54,235 nt of DNA from Oscillospiraceae bacterium (GTDB lineage: Bacteria > Bacillota > Clostridia > Oscillospirales > SIG530): positions 1 through 54,235 of the forward strand of contig SVND01000011.1 in assembly GCA_015067075.1 (NCBI GenBank), given 5' to 3'. The notes under the pieces are model-generated. The model made no database searches. It saw nothing but the letters and a program-made list of their open reading frames with translations, and was not told where the DNA came from. Below are positions 41,543-52,220 of the stretch, in pieces; within the stretch, counting starts at the first letter, position 1; every line of letters begins with the position of its first letter. A program made the translations under genes and the position numbers.

Positions 41543-42186
41543 GTATTTGCTATATTGTTTCCGCAGGTAAAATTGAAAAAGCGGAGCTTTTAAAGGTGGA
41601 AAAAAAGGCGGGCGACCTTGTGATCTGCGCAGACGCAGGGATAAAAAATGCAGAAAAGCTCGGTCTTAAAGCTGACGTAGTCGTGGGCGATTTCGACTCG
41701 TCGAGCATGCCTGACGCAGACAGCTACGGCGGAAATATAACTGTGCATCCTGCGGAAAAGGATGAAACGGACACTTTTCTTGCAATGAAAACCGGATACG
41801 ATATGGGTTATCGTAAATTTGTGTTTTTAGGTGCGACGGGAAAGCGCCTTGACCATACTTGGGCGAACGTAACGTTGCTTAAATGGCTTTGCAAAAACGG
41901 AGCTGAGGGCGAGATACGGGACGAGTACGTGCGTGTTTTCATGATGATGCCGCCGGGAGGCGAGATAAAAAGGACAGACGGATATAAGCTGTCCTTGTTT
42001 CCTTTTGACGAAGCGGCGGAAAATATCGTTTTACACGGAACGAAGTATCATGTAGAGGAAAAACGACTTGTTAACGACTTTCCCTTGGGCGTAAGCAATG
42101 AATTTGAAGAAGATACAGTGAAAATTGAGCTTGAAAAAGGCGCACTTCTTGTGATGCTGGCAACAGATGGGGAGGAATGGTCATGA
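41539..42186 (+). CDS. thiN: Thiamine pyrophosphokinase
   Basis: This 215-residue enzyme transfers pyrophosphate from ATP to thiamine. It contains ICADAGIKNAEKLGL, VVGDFDSSSMP, HPAEKDETDTFLA and FLGATGKRLDHTWANV, the characteristic TPK order. ATG 41539 overlaps the rsgA stop. It is the last gene of the conserved operon and overlaps the SGNH hydrolase gene by 4 bp. Confidence 0.94.
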   Translation: MSICYIVSAGKIEKAELLKVEKKAGDLVICADAGIKNAEKLGLKADVVVGDFDSSSMPDADSYGGNITVHPAEKDETDTFLAMKTGYDMGYRKFVFLGATGKRLDHTWANVTLLKWLCKNGAEGEIRDEYVRVFMMMPPGGEIKRTDGYKLSLFPFDEAAENIVLHGTKYHVEEKRLVNDFPLGVSNEFEEDTVKIELEKGALLVMLATDGEEWS

Positions 42187-43286
42187 ATTTAGATTATAAT
42201 AAGGTGCTGCGCGAGGCTGTAATAAGTGAGGGTAACGTGTCAAGACTTTTAAAGGTCTTTGACAAAGCAAGACGCGGCGAAAGCGTAACCGTCGGCGCTA
42301 TCGGCGGCTCTATAACACAGGGTGCGCACTCAACGAAAAAAGAAAATCAGTACATACAGCACGTTGGTGCTTGGTTTAAGCAGTATTTCGAAAACGATAA
42401 TATCACCGTTGTCAACGCGGGAATAGGCGCAACAAATTCCATGTACGGTATTTTCCGATGCGACAGAGATTTTCTTTCCAAGGGAATTGACGTTGCGATT
42501 ATTGATTTTTGCTGTAACGACTTTTTCGAGGACGAAACGGCAATGAGCGATTATGAAGCCGTTATCCGCAAAATACTTACAAGCGAGAAAAATCCGCCTC
42601 TTATTGCAATGTCCTTTACGACGGAAAGCGGTGACGATACCCATGCGCTCCATCATCCCACGTCCTATTATTATAATTTGCCCATGATTTCCTATGGCAG
42701 AGCCGTTCGCAAGTATTTGAACAGCGGCGAGCTGAAATGGAGTGAGCTGTCACCCGATACCGTCCACCCCAACGATTTTGGTCATAAATTGGCGGCAGAT
42801 ATGATAACGGCGTTTTTTGAAAGCGTTGATAAGAGCTTTGCAGGCGAGCGAGGCGAATATGTAATGCCTGAAAAGGTGCTAAATAAATATGTATATAATG
42901 CGCCGCGCCTTGTCTGTGCAAACGGCGAGGGTGTGACGGAGCTTGGCGGTTTTGAGATCTGCAAAACGCCTTACAGCGGTCTTGACGGCTACAAGGCAAC
43001 GTCAAAACAGCCCATAACCTTTAAGCTTAAATGCGAAAAGCTGGGTATATCTTTTTTGCGATGGAATACATACACCTTCGGCAAGGCGAGCGTCACCGTT
43101 GACGGCAAGCAGGTGGCCGTGCTTGACGGTCATTTTCCCGTCACTTGGGGAGGATTTTTGTGTACGAAAATGCTGGCGACAGACCTTGAAAACAAGGAGC
43201 ATGAGATAAAAATACAGCTTTGCGAGGAAAAAGCGGAAAAATCCACGGGTGAGGAATTTATGTTTTGTTATTTGCTTGCAGATTAA
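42183..43286 (+). CDS. Cytoplasmic SGNH/GDSL hydrolase with C-terminal beta domain
   Basis: This 367-residue protein has block I IGGSITQG (nucleophile Ser43), the Gly block VNAGIGATNS, the Asn block IDFCCNDFF and block V DTVHPNDFGH. It is therefore a serine esterase-type hydrolase, probably acting on acyl or acetyl groups of a carbohydrate-like substrate. The C-terminal ~120 residues look like a beta-sandwich (FLRWNTYTFGKASVTVDGKQ). No signal peptide is seen. ATG 42183 has GGGGAGG 8 nt upstream. It starts inside thiN and lies 18 bp before the glycyl-radical activase, so it links the housekeeping operon to the glycyl radical pair. Confidence 0.85.
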   Translation: MNLDYNKVLREAVISEGNVSRLLKVFDKARRGESVTVGAIGGSITQGAHSTKKENQYIQHVGAWFKQYFENDNITVVNAGIGATNSMYGIFRCDRDFLSKGIDVAIIDFCCNDFFEDETAMSDYEAVIRKILTSEKNPPLIAMSFTTESGDDTHALHHPTSYYYNLPMISYGRAVRKYLNSGELKWSELSPDTVHPNDFGHKLAADMITAFFESVDKSFAGERGEYVMPEKVLNKYVYNAPRLVCANGEGVTELGGFEICKTPYSGLDGYKATSKQPITFKLKCEKLGISFLRWNTYTFGKASVTVDGKQVAVLDGHFPVTWGGFLCTKMLATDLENKEHEIKIQLCEEKAEKSTGEEFMFCYLLAD

Positions 43287-43304: not shown

Positions 43305-44129
43305 ATGACAGGGACGATTTTTGACGTTCAGCGTTTTTCACTTCACGACGGGGCAGGGATACGGACGACTGTTTTTATGAAGGGCTGTCCCTTGCGCTGC
43401 GGCTGGTGTCATAATCCTGAAGGTTTGAGCGGAGAGCTTTGTGCACAGTTTTTTGAAGCTGAATGCATTGGCTGTAATCGGTGCGGAGGGAGACACGAGC
43501 TTGCTTTTGCGGAAAAATGCCCAACGGGTGCGCTGAAGGTATCAGGTGAAAAAATTGAGGAGCACCAGCTTTTGGAAAAGGTGCTTTGTGATGCTGAATT
43601 TTACGGCGATGACGGCGGAGTTACTTTTTCAGGAGGCGAATGCCTTTTGCAGGCTGACTTTGTGGCAAGGATGTTGAAGGCTGTAAAGGAAAATGGCTTT
43701 ACAACTGCTGTCGACACCTGCGGCTGTGTTCCGTGGACGAGTTTCGAAAAAACCTTGCCATATTGCGATACGTATTTGTACGATATAAAATGCGCTGACA
43801 GCGCACTTCACAAAAAATATACGGGCAAAAGCAACGAGCTTATTTTGGAAAATTTGCAAAAGCTGTCTGACAGCGGGGCGCGAATATGGCTGCGTGTGCC
43901 CGTTATCCCCGACGTGAACGACAGCGACGGGGAAATGGCGGAAATAGCAAAAATCGCAGGAAAAATCAACGCGGAAAAAATAACGCTTATGCCGTATCAT
44001 ACGCTGGGAAAGAGCAAGTACAAAACGCTGGGACTTACGCCTGCCTATGAAACGGAGAAGATGATAAGCGGACAAAGGATAGCACAGCTTAAAAAGATTT
44101 TTGACGGAAAAGATGCCGTCGTTGAATAG
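43305..44129 (+). CDS. Glycyl-radical enzyme activating protein
   Basis: This 274-residue radical SAM activase has its cluster at Cys28-Cys32-Cys35 (GCPLRCGWCHN) and begins GTIFDVQRFSLHDGAGIRTT, the family start. An insert carries one further 4Fe-4S set (Cys54, Cys57, Cys60, Cys72), where many family members have two. It also contains GVTFSGGECLLQ and LMPYHTLGKSKY. It abstracts hydrogen from the glycine of the enzyme encoded 9 bp downstream. Confidence 0.93.
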   Translation: MTGTIFDVQRFSLHDGAGIRTTVFMKGCPLRCGWCHNPEGLSGELCAQFFEAECIGCNRCGGRHELAFAEKCPTGALKVSGEKIEEHQLLEKVLCDAEFYGDDGGVTFSGGECLLQADFVARMLKAVKENGFTTAVDTCGCVPWTSFEKTLPYCDTYLYDIKCADSALHKKYTGKSNELILENLQKLSDSGARIWLRVPVIPDVNDSDGEMAEIAKIAGKINAEKITLMPYHTLGKSKYKTLGLTPAYETEKMISGQRIAQLKKIFDGKDAVVE

Positions 44130-44138
44130 GGTGAATTT

Positions 44139-46334
44139 ATGACAGAAAGAATTCGTTTTTTAAGGGAGCAGACGCTGACAAGTAAAAATAAGATTGCGCG
44201 CCGTCCCATACCTTTTCACTCAACGGCGAATGAAAAAGGCGGTATTCCCGTAAGAAAAGCCCTTGCACTCAAGTGGATGTTCGACACGATGCCCGTTTAT
44301 ATCGGCGAAAAGGAGCTTATCGTCGGCACGCGTACCTACTATCAGCCACACGCCGACAACGCCGACGGTCACAGTGTTTGCGACTACTCCCAATGGGCGT
44401 ACCCTGAATTTATAAACATCGCCGATATTGAAAAGTTCGGCGAAAACGCTTGCTATATGAATAAAACTCATTATACGCCGGATTTTGCCATGCTACTTGA
44501 AAAGGGCATTGGCGGTATCATAGAGCAAGCGCAGCTCCGCAAGGAGGATAAAACGCTTAAGGCGCAAAATATCGAATTTTTAGACAGTGTTATTATTGCG
44601 TATACGGGACTTAAAAATCTCGTTTTGAGATATGCCGACCATGCCAAACAGCTTTCGGACAATACGGATGACGACAATGAAAAAGCAAGGCTTTCCGAAA
44701 TTGAGCGCATTTGCCGAAAAATAAGTGAAGGCAAGCCTGACACCTTCCGCGAAGCCATACAGCTTTTGTGGTTTGGCCATCTCGGCACGATGATAGAAAG
44801 CTTTATTTTCATAAATTACGGCAGGCTTGATGTTATTTTGGGCAAATATCTTAAAGATACCCCCTTTGCCGAGGGTGAGGAGCTTATCGCTTGCCTTCTT
44901 TTAAAAATGTACGATCAGGCGGACCTTAACGATATGTCGGTACTGAATAAGCACGAAGGACAGCTTGTTATAACCCTTGGCGGAGTTGACGAAAAGGGTG
45001 AAAATGCCGTAAACGACGTTACGATGATGTTTTTGAATGCGGCATCGTTTACGAAGCTTCCCGAGCCTGAAATAAATTTGCGCATAAGCAGTAAAAATCC
45101 CCCTGAATTTCTTGACAAAGCGGCGCAAATGACGGTAGACGGCTGTAACTTTGTTTCCTATTATAACGATGACCTTTTTGTAGAAGCACTTATTTACGGC
45201 GGCGCAGAGGCGCAGGATGCAAGGTGCTACGGATTTGATCTTTGTCAGGACATAAATTTCCCAGGAAAAAGCTCATCGTGGGTGGTGCATAATATTTCTC
45301 TCGCCCATGAGCTTATGAATATGCTTTGCGAAAAGGACGATTTTGACAGCTTTGATGAGCTTTTGTCGTCGTTCAAAAGCAGAGTTGCAAAGGTTATCAG
45401 TGACGGCATAAATTGGTATAATGCAACGGGCGAGCATATGATGCTTTACCGTGACGGCAGGTATGACGAGTTTTTCCACGCTGTGAAGAACAAAGGAATG
45501 CCAACGAGCTGGGACGGAAGAAGCCCCATGTGTCCGCTTCCACTTTTGAGCGCGCTGTATCACGGCACGGTGGAAAACGCCGTAGATATGACGCTTGAGG
45601 GCTATATGCTTAAGCACCGTGGCTCCATGGTGGGCACGGCTGTGGAAGCCGTAAACTCCTTGGCGGCGATAAAAAAGGTGGTTTTCGAGGAAAAACAGTA
45701 CACACTTGAGCAGGTGGTTAAGGCTTGCAAGGAAGATTTTTTCGGTGAAGAAATACTGCGCTCGGTGCTGTGGAATGCGCCGAAATGGGGCAACGACGAT
45801 GAGTATGTGGACAGCATTGCAAAGGAGCTGCTTGAATTTTGCCTTGTCCGATTTAACGAGTGCCGTACTTTTTCAGGAGGCAGAGTTTTTTCGGGCATAC
45901 ATCAGCCCCATCCTGTGACAACGGGGCAAGGACTCATGGCAACGGCTGAAGGCAGACGTGCAGGAGCACCTGTGGCGGTAACCATGACAGCGGAAAACGG
46001 CACGATGAAAAACGGCGCTACTGCGGCACTAAAATCTGCATCTGTTTTTGATACGAAGCTTTTGCAGTGGAATTACTGCTGTATGGTCAACTATTATGCC
46101 TCTGTTTTTGCAGGGGAAAGCGGCAAGGACAATTTCAAAAAATTGCTTCTTACCTATTTTAAGCGCGGCGGAATGCAGCATCAGCCCAATGTTTTAGATG
46201 CAAACGAGCTTAAGAAGGCACAGCTTGAGCCTGAGCGATATAAGGACCTTGTAGTAAGGCTTTGGGGTGTTTCGGCGCATTTTGTGGATATCCCCAAGGA
46301 AATGCAGGATGAAATGATTGCAAGACTTTCATGA
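44139..46334 (+). CDS. Glycyl radical enzyme of unrecognised subtype
   Basis: This 731-residue PFL-like enzyme has the recognisable backbone MPVYIGEKELIVGTRTY, QLVITLGGVDEKGENAVND, DARCYGFDLCQDINFPGK, GRRAGAPVAVTM and the C-terminal glycyl loop RLWGVSAHF with Gly710 and PKEMQDEMIAR. The probable thiyl Cys369 is in LCQD where most family members have GCVE, so the acid/base position carries Asp371. The glycyl loop is RLWGV rather than RV-x-G-(F/W/Y). Substrate is unknown; it does not look like PFL, CutC, HypD or glycerol dehydratase by these motifs. The dedicated activase lies immediately upstream. Confidence 0.88.
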   Translation: MTERIRFLREQTLTSKNKIARRPIPFHSTANEKGGIPVRKALALKWMFDTMPVYIGEKELIVGTRTYYQPHADNADGHSVCDYSQWAYPEFINIADIEKFGENACYMNKTHYTPDFAMLLEKGIGGIIEQAQLRKEDKTLKAQNIEFLDSVIIAYTGLKNLVLRYADHAKQLSDNTDDDNEKARLSEIERICRKISEGKPDTFREAIQLLWFGHLGTMIESFIFINYGRLDVILGKYLKDTPFAEGEELIACLLLKMYDQADLNDMSVLNKHEGQLVITLGGVDEKGENAVNDVTMMFLNAASFTKLPEPEINLRISSKNPPEFLDKAAQMTVDGCNFVSYYNDDLFVEALIYGGAEAQDARCYGFDLCQDINFPGKSSSWVVHNISLAHELMNMLCEKDDFDSFDELLSSFKSRVAKVISDGINWYNATGEHMMLYRDGRYDEFFHAVKNKGMPTSWDGRSPMCPLPLLSALYHGTVENAVDMTLEGYMLKHRGSMVGTAVEAVNSLAAIKKVVFEEKQYTLEQVVKACKEDFFGEEILRSVLWNAPKWGNDDEYVDSIAKELLEFCLVRFNECRTFSGGRVFSGIHQPHPVTTGQGLMATAEGRRAGAPVAVTMTAENGTMKNGATAALKSASVFDTKLLQWNYCCMVNYYASVFAGESGKDNFKKLLLTYFKRGGMQHQPNVLDANELKKAQLEPERYKDLVVRLWGVSAHFVDIPKEMQDEMIARLS

Positions 46335-46400
46335 AATATGAATAAAAAAGGCTTTTTCGTAAAAAATAAAAGCAAACCTAAAGAAAGGAATGCTTATAAA

Positions 46401-47243
46401 ATGAAAAAGCTTTTTTCTATTTTTGCGGCGTTGTTAGCTGTGGCGGCGATGTCGTCAACTGCGGCGCAAAATCTGCTCCTTGCCACGGATGAGGTGAAAA
46501 CGGAGATAGGTGACAGCGCCTACATCGTTGATATCGTTGAAAACTATCAGGGAAAGCAGTTTGGCTCGTGGTCGAGCATCGGTAAACAGGTGTTTTCCGT
46601 TGATACGGAGACGAAAAAATTCGGTGAACAGTCGCTGAAAATATCAAATCCGTCCATCGGTCATTCCGCAATAAATCTGATGCTTCCGAAAACCCTTGAG
46701 CCGGGGAAAAGATACACCTTTCAGGCGTGGGTAAAAACACAAAAGGTACTCAGCCCGGAATGGGGTGCATCTATCGCTGTCGAGTATTACACCCTTGACG
46801 ACAAAGGCGCACAGTCGGTAATGCAGGGCGATTTCGGTGCAAGTGAGCGCATCACGGGAACGAAGGATTGGACGAAGCTGAGCCTCACTTTTACCGTGCC
46901 GACGCAGGCTAACGAGGGCGGTATAATTGCGCTTCAGCTTTGGAATTCTACGGGAACGGCTTGGTTTGACGGGCTTGCCGTAGTCGAGGGCGAAAACGCG
47001 GTGGATGACAGCTTGTTGGGCGGTGCGGATGTAAGCACGCCGACTAAGGCGGCAACGCCGACAAAGGCTCCGACAAAAGCGCCAACCGTGACGAAAACGG
47101 CAACGCCTACGGAAACAAATCCCGACACAGGTGAATCGCCCACACAGATGACGTGGTATATCATCCTTGCCATTATATCCTTGGCTGTGATCGTGTGGCT
47201 CGTTTGGTATTTCGCATCGAGAGCAAACAGAGACAAATACTGA
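46401..47243 (+). CDS. Secreted carbohydrate-binding-like protein with C-terminal anchor
   Basis: This 280-residue protein has a Sec signal peptide (~1-28, MKKLFSIFAALLAVAAMSS). Residues ~40-195 form a jelly-roll of CBM4/9-like style: FGEQSLKISNPS, TLEPGKRYTFQAWVKTQ, WTKLSLTFTVPTQ, TAWFDGLAVVEG. A Thr/Pro/Lys-rich linker of TPTKA-type repeats (~210-240) is followed by NPDTGESP, a TM helix and RANRDKY. The NPDTG plus TM plus basic tail has the layout of a sortase sorting signal, though no sortase is in the window; it may simply be a membrane anchor. ATG 46401 has AAAGGA upstream. Confidence 0.7.
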   Translation: MKKLFSIFAALLAVAAMSSTAAQNLLLATDEVKTEIGDSAYIVDIVENYQGKQFGSWSSIGKQVFSVDTETKKFGEQSLKISNPSIGHSAINLMLPKTLEPGKRYTFQAWVKTQKVLSPEWGASIAVEYYTLDDKGAQSVMQGDFGASERITGTKDWTKLSLTFTVPTQANEGGIIALQLWNSTGTAWFDGLAVVEGENAVDDSLLGGADVSTPTKAATPTKAPTKAPTVTKTATPTETNPDTGESPTQMTWYIILAIISLAVIVWLVWYFASRANRDKY

Positions 47244-47253
47244 TAAAATTGTT

Positions 47254-47292
47254 ATCGCCGCAAGCATTTCTACTTGCGGCGATATGTTTTTG
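47254..47292 (+). terminator. Terminator of the glycyl-radical locus
   Basis: Perfect 11-bp stem ATCGCCGCAAG/CTTGCGGCGAT (47254-47283) with an 8-nt loop, followed by ATGTTTTTG. It lies 11 bp after the stop of the anchored protein gene. It could also end a minus-strand RNA. Confidence 0.85.
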
Positions 47293-48109: not shown

Positions 48110-49351
48110 TTAGCCCGGTTCGCCTGCGAGGAATTTACGTCTGACCTCTTCGTAGACCTCGTCTGGTATCTCCTCGTCGTTGTGGATGTTGTTTGGAACC
48201 CACATATCGCCTGCAATAGCCTTTACAGTGCAGAACGTATCGTTTCTGTAAGCGTCACGCTCTTCCTTAAGGCGAAGGTTGGGAACGCGCTGAGGTGCTC
48301 CGCCGTTTACGATGGAGCGATATGCCAAAATGCCGGGGATGCACATATCAACAGCCATATAAACGTCGATGCAATTTGCAAGTGCTTCCTTATCGCCGAG
48401 GCAAGCCTTAATGAAATAGTAAGTGGTGAAAAAGTCGCCGCCGCCGTGAGTTGCGCCTTCCGCCGCCTTATTTGTAAATTCGGGGGAATATTTTACGTGC
48501 TCGCCGACACAGTTTTTGTCGCTTTCTCTATAAACGTGGAGCTGTCCGCCGTCCCAGCGATCCGTCTCCATGGAGCCCTTAAGACCGTACATCTGATAGT
48601 TGATGGAGCCGGGCTCACGCTTAAGTCCGCCGTGAAGGCTCTTGACGATCGCGCCGTTTTCGAGGGTAACGATTTCCATGCCCGAGGTGCCTGCAGCTGT
48701 GCCGAGGTTGCGCATGAAGGGCGCGTTAGGTGTTTCAAAGCCCGAAACGGATACGGGACGAAGTCCTGTAGCGTAGATGATGGGACCGAGGGAATGGGTG
48801 CAATAGAAGGTGGAGTACATTGTGTTTCTCCAATGGTCCTTCTCGCCGTAGGTGATGCCGGGCCAGATGGAAGAGCAATCGTGAACGTATTCACCCTCCG
48901 CATGGGTCAGCTCGCCAATCTCGCCGCGGCGATAGATCTCGCGCATCTCGTATGTAGTATTAAAAAAGCAGTAATTTTCGGCGTAGCAATATATCTTGCC
49001 CGTTCTTTCAACGGCTTCGATAAGTGCTACAGCCTCAGCCAAGGTCGCGCAGGTGAGGCATTCACTCATAACGTGCTTACCGCTTTCCAGTGCCTTGATG
49101 GCGAAGGGAGCGTGTTCGTTGGCGTAGTTTGCCAAAACGACAGCGTCCATATCGTGCTTGAGAAATTCATCGTAATCGGAGTAGCCTGTAACGGTTACGC
49201 CTTTTTCCTTGGCGATGTTTACGCAATAATCAACGGATTCCTGCACCTTATCGCAAACAGCCACAAGCTCGGCTTCGTTGCTGTTAAGCGTTTCGTTTAC
49301 CATGCAAGAGCCTCGTCTGCCGCCGATAACGCCAATTCTTAATTTTGCCAT
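48110..49351 (-). CDS. Gfo/Idh/MocA-family protein, variant lacking the EKP lysine
   Basis: This 413-residue protein has an N-terminal Rossmann domain (LRIGVIGGRRGS, AELVAVCDK, AVVLANYANEHAPFAIKALES) and a C-terminal Gfo/Idh sheet domain. Such enzymes are usually NAD(P)-dependent sugar or inositol oxidoreductases. The catalytic EKP block is here SECL (Glu97-Cys98), followed by AENYCFF, typical of a sub-branch with altered active site, so ordinary dehydrogenase activity is not assured. ATG 49351 has GGGAGGAA upstream. Its own promoter and operator-like repeat lie in the 186-bp gap after the solute-binding protein gene. Confidence 0.85.
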   Translation of the reverse strand: MAKLRIGVIGGRRGSCMVNETLNSNEAELVAVCDKVQESVDYCVNIAKEKGVTVTGYSDYDEFLKHDMDAVVLANYANEHAPFAIKALESGKHVMSECLTCATLAEAVALIEAVERTGKIYCYAENYCFFNTTYEMREIYRRGEIGELTHAEGEYVHDCSSIWPGITYGEKDHWRNTMYSTFYCTHSLGPIIYATGLRPVSVSGFETPNAPFMRNLGTAAGTSGMEIVTLENGAIVKSLHGGLKREPGSINYQMYGLKGSMETDRWDGGQLHVYRESDKNCVGEHVKYSPEFTNKAAEGATHGGGDFFTTYYFIKACLGDKEALANCIDVYMAVDMCIPGILAYRSIVNGGAPQRVPNLRLKEERDAYRNDTFCTVKAIAGDMWVPNNIHNDEEIPDEVYEEVRRKFLAGEPG

Positions 49352-49392
49352 AATTATTCCTCCCTGAATTGAAGAATTTAAATTATTATATC

Positions 49393-49410
49393 GTTGTAAA
49401 AGCATACAAC
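49393..49410. promoter_or_regulatory. Operator-like inverted repeat at the Gfo/Idh promoter
   Basis: GTTGTA-n6-TACAAC, a perfect inverted repeat in the wider context TCGTTGTA...TACAACAA. It covers the predicted transcription start just downstream of the -10 at 49417-49422. The shape is similar to LacI/GalR or cre-type operators. The regulator is not in the window. Confidence 0.55.
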
Positions 49411-49416
49411 AATTAT

Positions 49417-49445
49417 ATTATTGCATATTTTTATTTGATTGTCAA
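49417..49445 (-). promoter_or_regulatory. Promoter of the first Gfo/Idh gene
   Basis: On the minus strand TTGACA (49445-49440), 17-bp spacer, TGC-AATAAT (extended -10, -10 at 49422-49417). Confidence 0.7.
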
Positions 49446-49537
49446 TAGGATTTTGAAAAAGTTTTATCAATAAAATGAAGCTTTTTTTCATGGAGTTTGA
49501 AGCGGCGAAAACAAACAAATTTGTCTCCGCAAAAATA

Positions 49538-50932
49538 TCATTCTTCCATAATGCCTGCGATAACGTCGTCGATTCTCGGCGCTATCTCTTCAGCAACTGC
49601 GCTCCAAGGCTCACCAAGGAGAGGACGGAACCAGATATCGCCCCAGAACTGACCCATTTCAAATGTTGTCCACGTCATAAGAACAGGTGTAAGACCGTCA
49701 CGGAGCTTCTGCTCCTGAACGTACATTTCCATTTCATAAGGGATACCCTTTTCTTCGAAAAATGCCTCGGCATCAACTTCTTCTTTATCGTGGTCATCGA
49801 GTACATCGTATCTTGCGGCATCCATCAAAGCCGCCGCGCCGTAGGGATTGGGAGCGTTTGCGCAAAGCATGTTTTCACCGAAGTACATACATGCATAATA
49901 GTTTTCGGAAGCAGGATCTCTCGGGAAGGGAACCCAAGCTATAGCATCGCGGGCGAACATATCCTTATATGTACCGCCTTGATAATACCAATAGCAGCCT
50001 ACCATCATAGCTATCTTACCCTGTGCGAAAGCTGTTCTGCCGTCACTTCCGTCGTACTCAACGCCTGCGTTAAAAAGGTCAACGGTAAAGTTAACTGCGC
50101 TTGCGATTTCAGGGCTGCGGATATTGTTTGTAACTGTGCCGTCGGGATTCATGGAAACGATATCTTTACCTGACGGATAAAGGAAAGCTTCTGTAAGCTC
50201 AATAGATACGCCCCAGATTTCGGGGATGCCGTCGCTGTCGGAGTCTGTTTGAACTGCACGGGCGCATTCGAGAAGCGTATCATATGTCCAGTTGCCTTCG
50301 TTGTAATATTCAACGGGGGATTTTACACCGAGCTCATCAAATATTTCAAGGTTTATCCACATACCGTCGCCGGCGTCTGTATTCATTTTTGTGCTAAGAC
50401 CGTAATGCTTGCCCTTGAAGAGAGTTGCGTCGAGACCTGTTTTAAGGTCAGTCCAAAGACCTGTGGAAAGGTCGATATAATCGTCCCAAGCAACGATATA
50501 GCCTTTGTTTGCAAGAGTAGGCTGGAAGGTGTCGTAACGGAAAATGTCGGGGGATTCGCCGCCCATAACGGATGAAACGAGCTTCGTTATTCTGTCAGCC
50601 GCGGCAACAACGTTTGTTTGCCATTTCATGTTGTAGATATCGCGGAAAGCATTTTCCTTATCCACAGCGGGCTGACCTTCTTCATAGTGGATCATGAAGG
50701 TAACTGTGTCGGACGTTACGGGGTAGTTGAGAAGTCGCCATTCGGGGTTACCGTTTGCACCGGGGTCGTTCATGTACTTGCCGCCTTCGGTGTAGTCAAC
50801 GGTTTGGGCTTGCGTAGGTGTTGCATCTGCGGAAGGAGTGGGAGTTGCGTCGTCGTTTGCGCCGCCTCCGTTACAGGCGACAAGGCTAAAGAGCATGAGA
50901 AGTGCGATTACGAGTGATAAAAGTTTTTTCAT
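49538..50932 (-). CDS. Orphan extracellular solute-binding lipoprotein (sugar ABC type)
   Basis: This 464-residue family-1 sugar-binding protein has a signal ending in lipobox SLVAC (Cys20). An acidic/Thr-rich linker with TPTPSADATPTQAQ is followed by the two-lobe body (NAFRDIYNMKWQTNVVAAADR, GESPDIFRYDTFQPTLANKGY, FAQGKIAMMVGCYWYYQGG). AAAGGAG precedes the ATG. It lies 24 bp after a Gfo/Idh gene but no permease or ATPase genes are next to it, so it either uses a remote transporter or acts as a sensor/binding protein. Confidence 0.88.
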   Translation of the reverse strand: MKKLLSLVIALLMLFSLVACNGGGANDDATPTPSADATPTQAQTVDYTEGGKYMNDPGANGNPEWRLLNYPVTSDTVTFMIHYEEGQPAVDKENAFRDIYNMKWQTNVVAAADRITKLVSSVMGGESPDIFRYDTFQPTLANKGYIVAWDDYIDLSTGLWTDLKTGLDATLFKGKHYGLSTKMNTDAGDGMWINLEIFDELGVKSPVEYYNEGNWTYDTLLECARAVQTDSDSDGIPEIWGVSIELTEAFLYPSGKDIVSMNPDGTVTNNIRSPEIASAVNFTVDLFNAGVEYDGSDGRTAFAQGKIAMMVGCYWYYQGGTYKDMFARDAIAWVPFPRDPASENYYACMYFGENMLCANAPNPYGAAALMDAARYDVLDDHDKEEVDAEAFFEEKGIPYEMEMYVQEQKLRDGLTPVLMTWTTFEMGQFWGDIWFRPLLGEPWSAVAEEIAPRIDDVIAGIMEE

Positions 50933-50956
50933 GTTTTTTCTCCTTTTTCAATTTTA

Positions 50957-52180
50957 TTAAAAGCCCCATTGCTTATGTGCCGCCGCAAGGTCCTCTTCGG
51001 ATGGTGCGTACGGTCTTGATGAGCAGGGGATATCGACGTTGCCGTTTTCATCGGGGAAGGGTGACAAAAAGTCATTTTCATATTTTACGCGATCCTCTTC
51101 CTTGCGGAAATCGGGGATATCATAGGGCTTGCTTCCCTCGAGGATACTGCGCCAACCGAGAATAGCGACGGATGCCATGGCTGTGGCACGGTAAACGTCC
51201 CAATAGGGCTGTTTATTTTCGCGAATGGCGTTAAAGAAGTTGAAAATTACCCAAAAATCGCCGCCGCCGTGACCGCCCTTAGCCGCAAGGTCGCCGTGGC
51301 TTTGCCACTGAGCCTTGTATGTGTTCCAATGTCCTACGTCATCGCTCGGGGGCGGAGCCCAATGGCTGTAGCAAAGGCGGACGCTTTCTTCGTCTCCGCG
51401 GACAGTTTCAGCGCTACCCTTTGTGCAAGAAAGGCGATACCAATTTCCGTGAGGCTCAAAGCCTGCACAGCCTGTCACGCGCATAACAGCGCCTGTATCT
51501 GTCTGGCAAAGCATTATTGCGCCGGAGTCGCCGCTGCGGAAAGCCGTACCTTTAAGATGGGTGGGGTTAAACGATGCCATACCTGTAACACGGACGGGCA
51601 TTGCATCTGTCATCTGCATAAGAGGAGCGAGGGAATGAGTTATGTAATAAGAGCGCGGTGTCCAGTTGCGCCAATGAAGCTCACCGGGCGCAAGGCTGTT
51701 TTTCTCCTCGGGACTTACTGTATGAACGTATTCGCCCTCAGCGTAAGCAAGCTCGCCCAATGTGCCGCCTTTGTAAAGGCGCTCAAGCTCCTGATTTGCG
51801 CACATTTGCGGATAGTTTTCAAGCAGAGAATAGATAGCGCCGCTCTTTTCAACGGCACGGCAAAGAGCAACGCCTTCGCCCATGGTGCAGTTGCTTGCGC
51901 ATTCGCTTAAAACATGGATGCCTTTTTCAAGGCAACGGACAGCGAAAGGCGCATGCTGATGGAAATAGTTGGAGAGCAAAACAGCTTCAAGACCTTCATG
52001 CTCAATAAAATCGTCGAAATTATTGTAACAAGCGATAGAAGGGCATTTGCTTTTCCAGTGGCTGAGTGTGTTTTCGTTCTTGTCGCAAATGGCAACGACT
52101 TCGCCGCCGCAATCATTTACGATGTCGATAAAAGCAGAGCCGCGTCCGCCGCCGAAAACACCGAGTTTGATTTTCTTCAT
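50957..52180 (-). CDS. Second Gfo/Idh/MocA-family protein, EKP lysine replaced
   Basis: This 407-residue paralogue of the product of the gene at 48110 has Rossmann start IKLGVFGGGRGS, LLSNYFHQHAPFAVRCLEKG, the altered catalytic block SECAS (Glu93-Cys94), LLENYPQMCAN and AYAEGEYVH. A Gly/His-rich GGHGGGDFW motif occurs in the C-terminal domain, as in its paralogue (THGGGDFF). It is presumably part of sugar or sugar-acid processing; the reaction is unknown. ATG 52180 has GAAGGAGG upstream. It is the first gene of the operon with the solute-binding protein. Confidence 0.85.
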   Translation of the reverse strand: MKKIKLGVFGGGRGSAFIDIVNDCGGEVVAICDKNENTLSHWKSKCPSIACYNNFDDFIEHEGLEAVLLSNYFHQHAPFAVRCLEKGIHVLSECASNCTMGEGVALCRAVEKSGAIYSLLENYPQMCANQELERLYKGGTLGELAYAEGEYVHTVSPEEKNSLAPGELHWRNWTPRSYYITHSLAPLMQMTDAMPVRVTGMASFNPTHLKGTAFRSGDSGAIMLCQTDTGAVMRVTGCAGFEPHGNWYRLSCTKGSAETVRGDEESVRLCYSHWAPPPSDDVGHWNTYKAQWQSHGDLAAKGGHGGGDFWVIFNFFNAIRENKQPYWDVYRATAMASVAILGWRSILEGSKPYDIPDFRKEEDRVKYENDFLSPFPDENGNVDIPCSSRPYAPSEEDLAAAHKQWGF

Positions 52181-52220
52181 GGTACAGTTCCTCCTTCGAA
52201 TCAAAAAATTCGAGCATAAA

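Follow-up and report, generated by a model that had tools for sequence, protein, structure and literature searches.

A glycyl radical enzyme (GRE) gene of an Oscillospiraceae bacterium from the gut encodes a member of a clade that is supported as a distinct subtype inside the known GRE superfamily, rather than as a new kind of system, because the clade is monophyletic, reaches no equivalog cut-off, shares at most 28% identity with solved GREs and recurs at 34 further loci with invariant motifs. The gene lies in a 54,235-nt stretch of contig SVND01000011.1 (assembly GCA_015067075.1), hereafter the window, and had been described in the initial annotation as a GRE with atypical thiyl and glycyl motifs. 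GREs are sensitive to oxygen. In GRE chemistry, an activase forms a glycyl radical, a cysteine becomes a thiyl radical and a substrate C–H bond is attacked; many GREs of gut bacteria are orphans. The present enzyme is tentatively read as a functional GRE of an uncharacterised subtype, namely, a C–O-cleaving dehydratase or eliminase of a sugar-derived polyol, with a deoxy product that would pass to a kinase, DeoC and an aldehyde reductase.

Materials and methods

An alignment of relatives served as the query for a scan of 84,980 species genomes, which gave 34 loci of the clade, and conservation was assessed in an alignment of 25 clade members that are 42–62% identical to the query. A maximum-likelihood tree was constructed from the clade, three HypD sequences and one CutC sequence (over their cut-offs), YbiW, PflD, glycerol dehydratase and the further GREs encoded in the window genome. 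Gene co-occurrence was counted in an order sample of 394 genomes, 16 of which carry this GRE. Residue roles were assigned by alignment to H164, H281, S282, E435, D447 and Y640 of glycerol dehydratase.

Results

Catalytic motifs of the GRE and their conservation

The GRE gene (Table 1) is an exact open reading frame with an ATG start and 731 codons plus a stop, and the fold landmarks noted initially were recovered as PFL-like (PF02901; 347.5 bits against a cut-off of 24.3, 2.3e-103) and Gly_radical (PF01228; 59.1 bits against 22.2, 7.2e-16) Pfam domains, which place the protein in the GRE superfamily. In the alignment to the solved structure of glycerol dehydratase (1r8w), the thiyl loop Y-G-F-D-L-C369-Q-D aligns with GCVEP (YGIIGCVEPQKPGK opposite YGFDLCQDINFPGK) and the glycyl loop V-R-L-W-G710-V-S-A-H-F with RVAGYSA; DLIVRVAGYSAQF lies opposite DLVVRLWGVSAHF. 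The published GRE fingerprint is RVXG[FWY] (PMC11528403), and every clade member reaching this region reads R[LM]WGV, which differs at two positions; because the catalytic glycine is kept, this represents a variant and not a non-member. The aminoacyl radical enzymes, which are GRE-related and have an altered glycyl fingerprint, replace this glycine with Ala, Ser or Thr (PMC11528403), whereas here the glycine is kept and the surrounding residues are changed.

L368, C369, Q370 and D371 are invariant in 25 of 25 clade members, and W709, G710, V711, S712 and A713 in each of the 24 sequences extending that far. H111, N506, H588-Q589-P590-H591-P592, W644-N645 and Q680-H681-Q682 are also invariant in the 25-sequence alignment, and an extra member of the same order at 38% identity (L097) contains FDLCQD, RMWGVSA, FHQPHP and MQHQPN. 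The same motifs are invariant at the 34 further loci wherever the loops are present. Because they are invariant among relatives, the altered thiyl and glycyl motifs are taken, on alignment evidence, as clade signatures and not as a sequencing error or a private oddity. The two motif positions had been proposed to set the substrate chemistry, which proved partly right; other pocket loops differ too, including HQPHP (588–592), QWN (643–645) and QHQPN (680–684), and the usual GGA.Y loop is lost. The predicted pocket is rebuilt at several further loops compared with glycerol dehydratase, HypD, CutC, YbiW and PflD.

Table 1 Features of the GRE locus in the window
Feature	Position	Strand	Basis or remark
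SGNH/GDSL hydrolase, homologue of acetylesterase RiCE17 (PDB 6hfz)	42177..43286	+	18 nt before activase
Radical-SAM GRE activase, 274 aa, CPLRCGWC, shortened four-Cys ferredoxin-like insert	43305..44129	+	Domain and profile matches
Glycyl radical enzyme (GRE), LCQD/WGV subtype, 731 aa	44139..46334	+	Pfam domains, alignments, model, tree
His111 codon, aligns with His164 of glycerol dehydratase, clade-invariant	44469..44471	+	Alignments
Cys369 codon, predicted thiyl-radical site, context FDLCQD	45243..45245	+	Alignment to 1r8w, clade alignment
Asp371 codon, position of the catalytic Glu of diol dehydratases	45249..45251	+	Alignments
HQPHP loop 588–592, clade-specific, aligns at Tyr640 of glycerol dehydratase	45900..45914	+	Alignments
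QHQPN loop 680–684, clade-specific	46176..46190	+	Alignments
Gly710 codon, predicted glycyl-radical site, context VRLWGVSAHF	46266..46268	+	Alignment to 1r8w, clade alignment
Secreted/surface protein with CBM_4_9 domain	46338..47243	+	Pfam; starts 3 nt after GRE stop
Strong terminator-like hairpin with T-rich tail	47253..47284	+	Would end the unit

Placement among known GREs

In the maximum-likelihood tree, 26 clade rows fall on one side of one branch (support 100/100, stem 0.86), with HypD, CutC, glycerol dehydratase, YbiW and PflD on the other; the deeper branching order is not resolved. The GRE approaches none of the NCBIfam equivalog cut-offs for HypD, CutC, HpsG/HpfG, HPAD, indoleacetate decarboxylase and PFL, scoring 282 bits against 1100 for HypD, 257 against 1050 for CutC and 59 against 994 for PFL. 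Membership in any named GRE equivalog is excluded by these scores together with the tree, and membership in YbiW/PflD by the separation of the clade at 100/100 support. The distinct subtype suggested initially is upheld; clustering with a characterised subtype, which would speak against it, was looked for in the tree and the scores and did not occur. HypD shares the GRE eliminase fold and a related type of activase, but its GCVE and RVAGYS loops are not kept here; CutC likewise shares the eliminase fold.

The AlphaFold2 model of the GRE (mean pLDDT 90.8, pTM 0.90) matched glycerol dehydratase and 1,2-propanediol dehydratases best in the PDB, over the whole chain, with a TM score of ~0.8 and 24–28% identity. 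Identity of 40–50% has been treated as lying under the level that separates most functionally distinct GREs (PMC11528403), and the clade is, by sequence comparison, far under this range against every characterised GRE compared here, the best-matching solved GREs reaching at most about 28%. The B12-independent glycerol and 1,2-propanediol dehydratases (PDB 1r8w, 9rco and 5i2g) are the best matches in both sequence and fold, and have in common with the clade the Cys and Gly sites, the equivalent of His164 and an activase. They differ in identity, in gene neighbourhoods and in the loops themselves: GCVEP is replaced by LCQDI and RVAGYS by RLWGVS, the Glu after the Cys is Asp371 here, H281/S282 correspond to I223/F224, Y640 to H588, and D447 is not kept.

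Activase and transcription unit

The dedicated activase claimed in the initial annotation is confirmed: the gene lies 9 nt upstream of the GRE, CPLRCGWC is a CX3CX2C cluster motif, with the GRE-activase subfamily profile the product reaches 288 bits (cut-off 174; no equivalog cut-off is exceeded), and the two genes are adjacent in the window and in nearly all relatives. Main-clade activases retain one four-Cys ferredoxin-like half only and the deep members L061, L064, L067 and L097 have two, which suggests that an auxiliary Fe–S cluster was lost in the former.

Gaps of 18, 9 and 3 nt and the hairpin behind the last gene suggest that the SGNH hydrolase, activase, GRE and CBM_4_9 protein genes form one transcription unit, in which the hydrolase is probably co-transcribed with the activase and the CBM_4_9 protein is probably the last gene. 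The Rfam scan of the window revealed no element, and the promoter scan gave no excess above shuffles. The description of RiCE17 (PDB 6hfz) is that of a 2-O-acetylesterase for plant cell-wall polysaccharide. Downstream, on the minus strand (48110–52204), Gfo/Idh/MocA oxidoreductases are encoded on either side of a 464-aa secreted protein, two in all; the secreted protein has no Pfam match and is possibly a solute-binding lipoprotein.

Relatives and their gene neighbourhoods

The relatives are hosted mainly by Oscillospiraceae and other Clostridia MAGs from ruminant and other animal guts, and also by Merdivicinus, Merdimmobilis hominis, Christensenella intestinihominis and one Lachnospiraceae bacterium. 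DeoC, an FGGY kinase and an Fe-type alcohol dehydrogenase precede the activase–GRE pair in L038, L041 and L099, and L049 contains DeoC and FGGY kinase followed by activase and GRE. The operon kinase is closest to xylulokinases, and the operon DeoC is over its equivalog cut-off (195 against 117 bits). This kinase subfamily was found in 4 of the 394 order genomes, all of them among the 16 GRE carriers (hypergeometric 1.8e-6); counted by genus, the 3 kinase genera all fall within the 8 of 168 that carry the GRE (p about 7e-5). Canonical nucleoside salvage as the source of deoxyribose was considered and rejected: DeoC is common by itself, but it is the particular kinase subfamily that goes with this GRE. 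A decayed copy of the operon was observed in Merdimmobilis hominis An559 (L066, 8080–10993), with a DeoC fragment, an intact kinase, a truncated GRE and no activase.

Most clade members have no local DeoC/kinase module. The window genome has no DeoC beside the GRE and lacks the operon kinase subfamily (best match 33%), so its own substrate handling may differ. In genome G252, an operon of GntR regulator, kinase, DeoC and Fe-type alcohol dehydrogenase (L095, 2816–9884) lies beside a different, 709-aa GRE of another subtype, on another contig than the clade GRE, and no activase was found in the L095 stretch around it. This module may serve the other GRE, an arrangement that speaks for modules of this kind being linked to GREs yet weakens an exclusive link to the clade.

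Further carbohydrate genes recur around clade GREs. The deep members L064 and L067 have an XylFGH-type sugar transporter, whose binding protein matches E. coli XylF at 2e-95, and a sugar two-component system around the GRE, and L067 also has XylB. In L057 and L068, the gene directly preceding the activase encodes a PfkB sugar kinase. GH78 alpha-L-rhamnosidases were detected in several loci, and GH29 fucosidases and GH28 or pectin-lyase-like proteins recur nearby; in L040 (6348–12187) a GH106-type alpha-L-rhamnosidase gene lies between activase and GRE. GH78 was present in 16 of 16 GRE genomes and 190 of 394 overall, a contrast that kinship inflates, and the association is weak once kinship is counted. 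In L039, L041, L045 and L063, an adenine deaminase directly follows the GRE and is followed by an oligopeptide-type (Opp) ABC transporter; this arrangement is limited to one syntenic lineage (one genus).

Other GREs of the host genome

The 2.3-Mb window genome encodes six further GREs of divergent subtypes (708–784 aa; contigs C12, C27 and C67; L001–L007), none of which is near a named equivalog cut-off. Two of them, 83% identical, are arranged in tandem next to a transporter of the branched-chain-amino-acid type. Another (L007, 1141–3345) has the thiyl context S-I-H-P-C-N-W-P-D, in which the Cys is neither preceded by the usual G nor followed by V-E. A GRE with the glycyl loop RIHGTFVNF (L003, 1033–3387) is preceded by a radical-SAM activase (L003, 3–1016) and followed by an FGGY kinase, and thus represents a second GRE/FGGY-kinase pairing in this genome.

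Discussion

Proposed reaction

A carbohydrate-derived substrate, as hinted at in the initial annotation, is supported mainly by the kinase, DeoC, Fe-type alcohol dehydrogenase, XylFGH and rhamnosidase genes of the relatives; the window context cited at that time, namely, the RiCE17 homologue and the following CBM_4_9 gene, lends it less support. On this reading, the GRE probably takes an oxygen atom off a sugar alcohol of plant origin. The radical formation, reaction class, substrate and step order proposed here build on the observed residues, activase, fold, clade and neighbourhoods. The adjacent radical-SAM activase would generate a radical at Gly710, which would be passed to Cys369, and the Cys369 thiyl radical would abstract hydrogen from a polyhydroxylated sugar-derived substrate, probably held by the His/Gln-rich loops (H111, H588, H591, H681, Q370 and Q589). 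The C–O bond adjoining the new substrate radical would then be broken as in diol dehydratases, with Asp371 replacing the usual catalytic Glu.

In the clade, the GRE would yield a deoxy sugar, either free or as the phosphate. Since FGGY kinases accept polyols (glycerol) as well as ketoses, phosphorylation may come after the GRE step, on the deoxy sugar, or before it, on the polyol. DeoC would split 2-deoxypentose phosphate into glyceraldehyde-3-phosphate and acetaldehyde, and the Fe-type alcohol dehydrogenase would reduce the aldehyde, giving ethanol from acetaldehyde. Pentitols, for instance ribitol or D-arabitol, or their 5-phosphates are the most specific substrate candidates, and dehydration of the 1,2-diol terminus would yield a 2-deoxy aldose (phosphate); given DeoC and an aldehyde reductase, this is the simplest reaction in which every partner has a place. 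A route from pentitol to pyruvate and ethanol would be redox-balanced by stoichiometry, unlike one that begins with oxidation to a ketose. A literature search, to which most subscription journals were closed, yielded no paper on a GRE acting on pentitols. In its fullest form, the clade would comprise radical-mediated pentitol (or pentitol-phosphate) dehydratases that make 2-deoxypentose without ribonucleotide reductase and feed DeoC, giving glyceraldehyde-3-phosphate and acetaldehyde, as an undescribed redox-balanced anaerobic sugar-alcohol route in gut Oscillospiraceae and Christensenella, which we regard as a speculative and rather doubtful extension.

Alternative explanations

Several lines of evidence support the polyol dehydratase reading: the catalytic Cys and Gly are kept in every member that reaches them, an activase is adjacent in nearly all, glycerol and 1,2-propanediol dehydratases match best in structure and sequence, the DeoC/FGGY kinase operon recurs with a kinase subfamily that tracks the GRE, and XylFGH and glycosidase genes lie near. 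The same structural matches, together with the rhamnosidases and fucosidases near many members and the GH78 genes in all GRE genomes, would also suit a divergent 1,2-propanediol (or glycerol) dehydratase disposing of the (S)-1,2-propanediol formed when L-rhamnose or L-fucose is fermented. We consider this unlikely, given the low identity, the change from Glu to Asp and from H281/S282 to I/F, and the separation from glycerol dehydratase in the tree; moreover, the neighbours examined included no recognisable gene for aldehyde dehydrogenase, phosphotransacylase or a microcompartment, and DeoC and the XylB-like kinase are left unexplained. The loss of H281/S282 and D447 weakens the polyol reading as well, as do the missing kinase subfamily in the window genome and the scarcity of local DeoC/kinase modules among members.

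The operon gene logic of sugar phosphorylation, GRE, class I aldolase and Fe-type dehydrogenase is shared with YbiW/PflD, the GREs of anhydroglycolysis in the passage of PMC12441222 that cites Ma et al. (2024). An improbable, though coherent, alternative is accordingly the ring opening of an anhydro-sugar (phosphate), with the FGGY kinase in place of PTS, DeoC in place of FsaA/B and the Fe-type dehydrogenase in place of GldA. However, the clade is separate from YbiW and PflD, the motifs differ, and YbiW-type opening, with a 1-deoxyketose product, gives no 2-deoxypentose phosphate for the release of acetaldehyde by DeoC. The adenine deaminase and peptide-type transporter of one genus are unexplained by the polyol model and weaken it; they would fit a GRE whose substrate is not a carbohydrate or contains nitrogen, for example, one derived from purines or nucleosides, with the carbohydrate genes being incidental. 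That such a substrate applies to the clade is still less plausible, as the deaminase is confined to a single syntenic lineage and carbohydrate genes recur in several families and in deep branches. Motifs off the family fingerprint and the decayed L066 locus would be expected of an inactive or degenerating paralogue with relaxed active-site loops, but motif invariance over 42–62% identity and an intact activase adjoining the GRE in nearly all loci with sequence make this very improbable.

Significance

To our knowledge, the discovery of each GRE subtype has added a further anaerobic reaction, as with choline, hydroxyproline, sulfonates and anhydro-sugars. The present clade has a clear signature (FxLCQD, RxWGV and HQPHP), widens the GRE annotation fingerprint, as RVXG[FWY] would miss it, and includes members in Merdimmobilis hominis and Christensenella intestinihominis records besides MAGs. 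The operon partners, namely, FGGY kinase, DeoC and Fe-type alcohol dehydrogenase, narrow the candidates to a few dozen testable compounds. If the proposed reading is true, polyol deoxygenation would extend anaerobic sugar breakdown by a new step.
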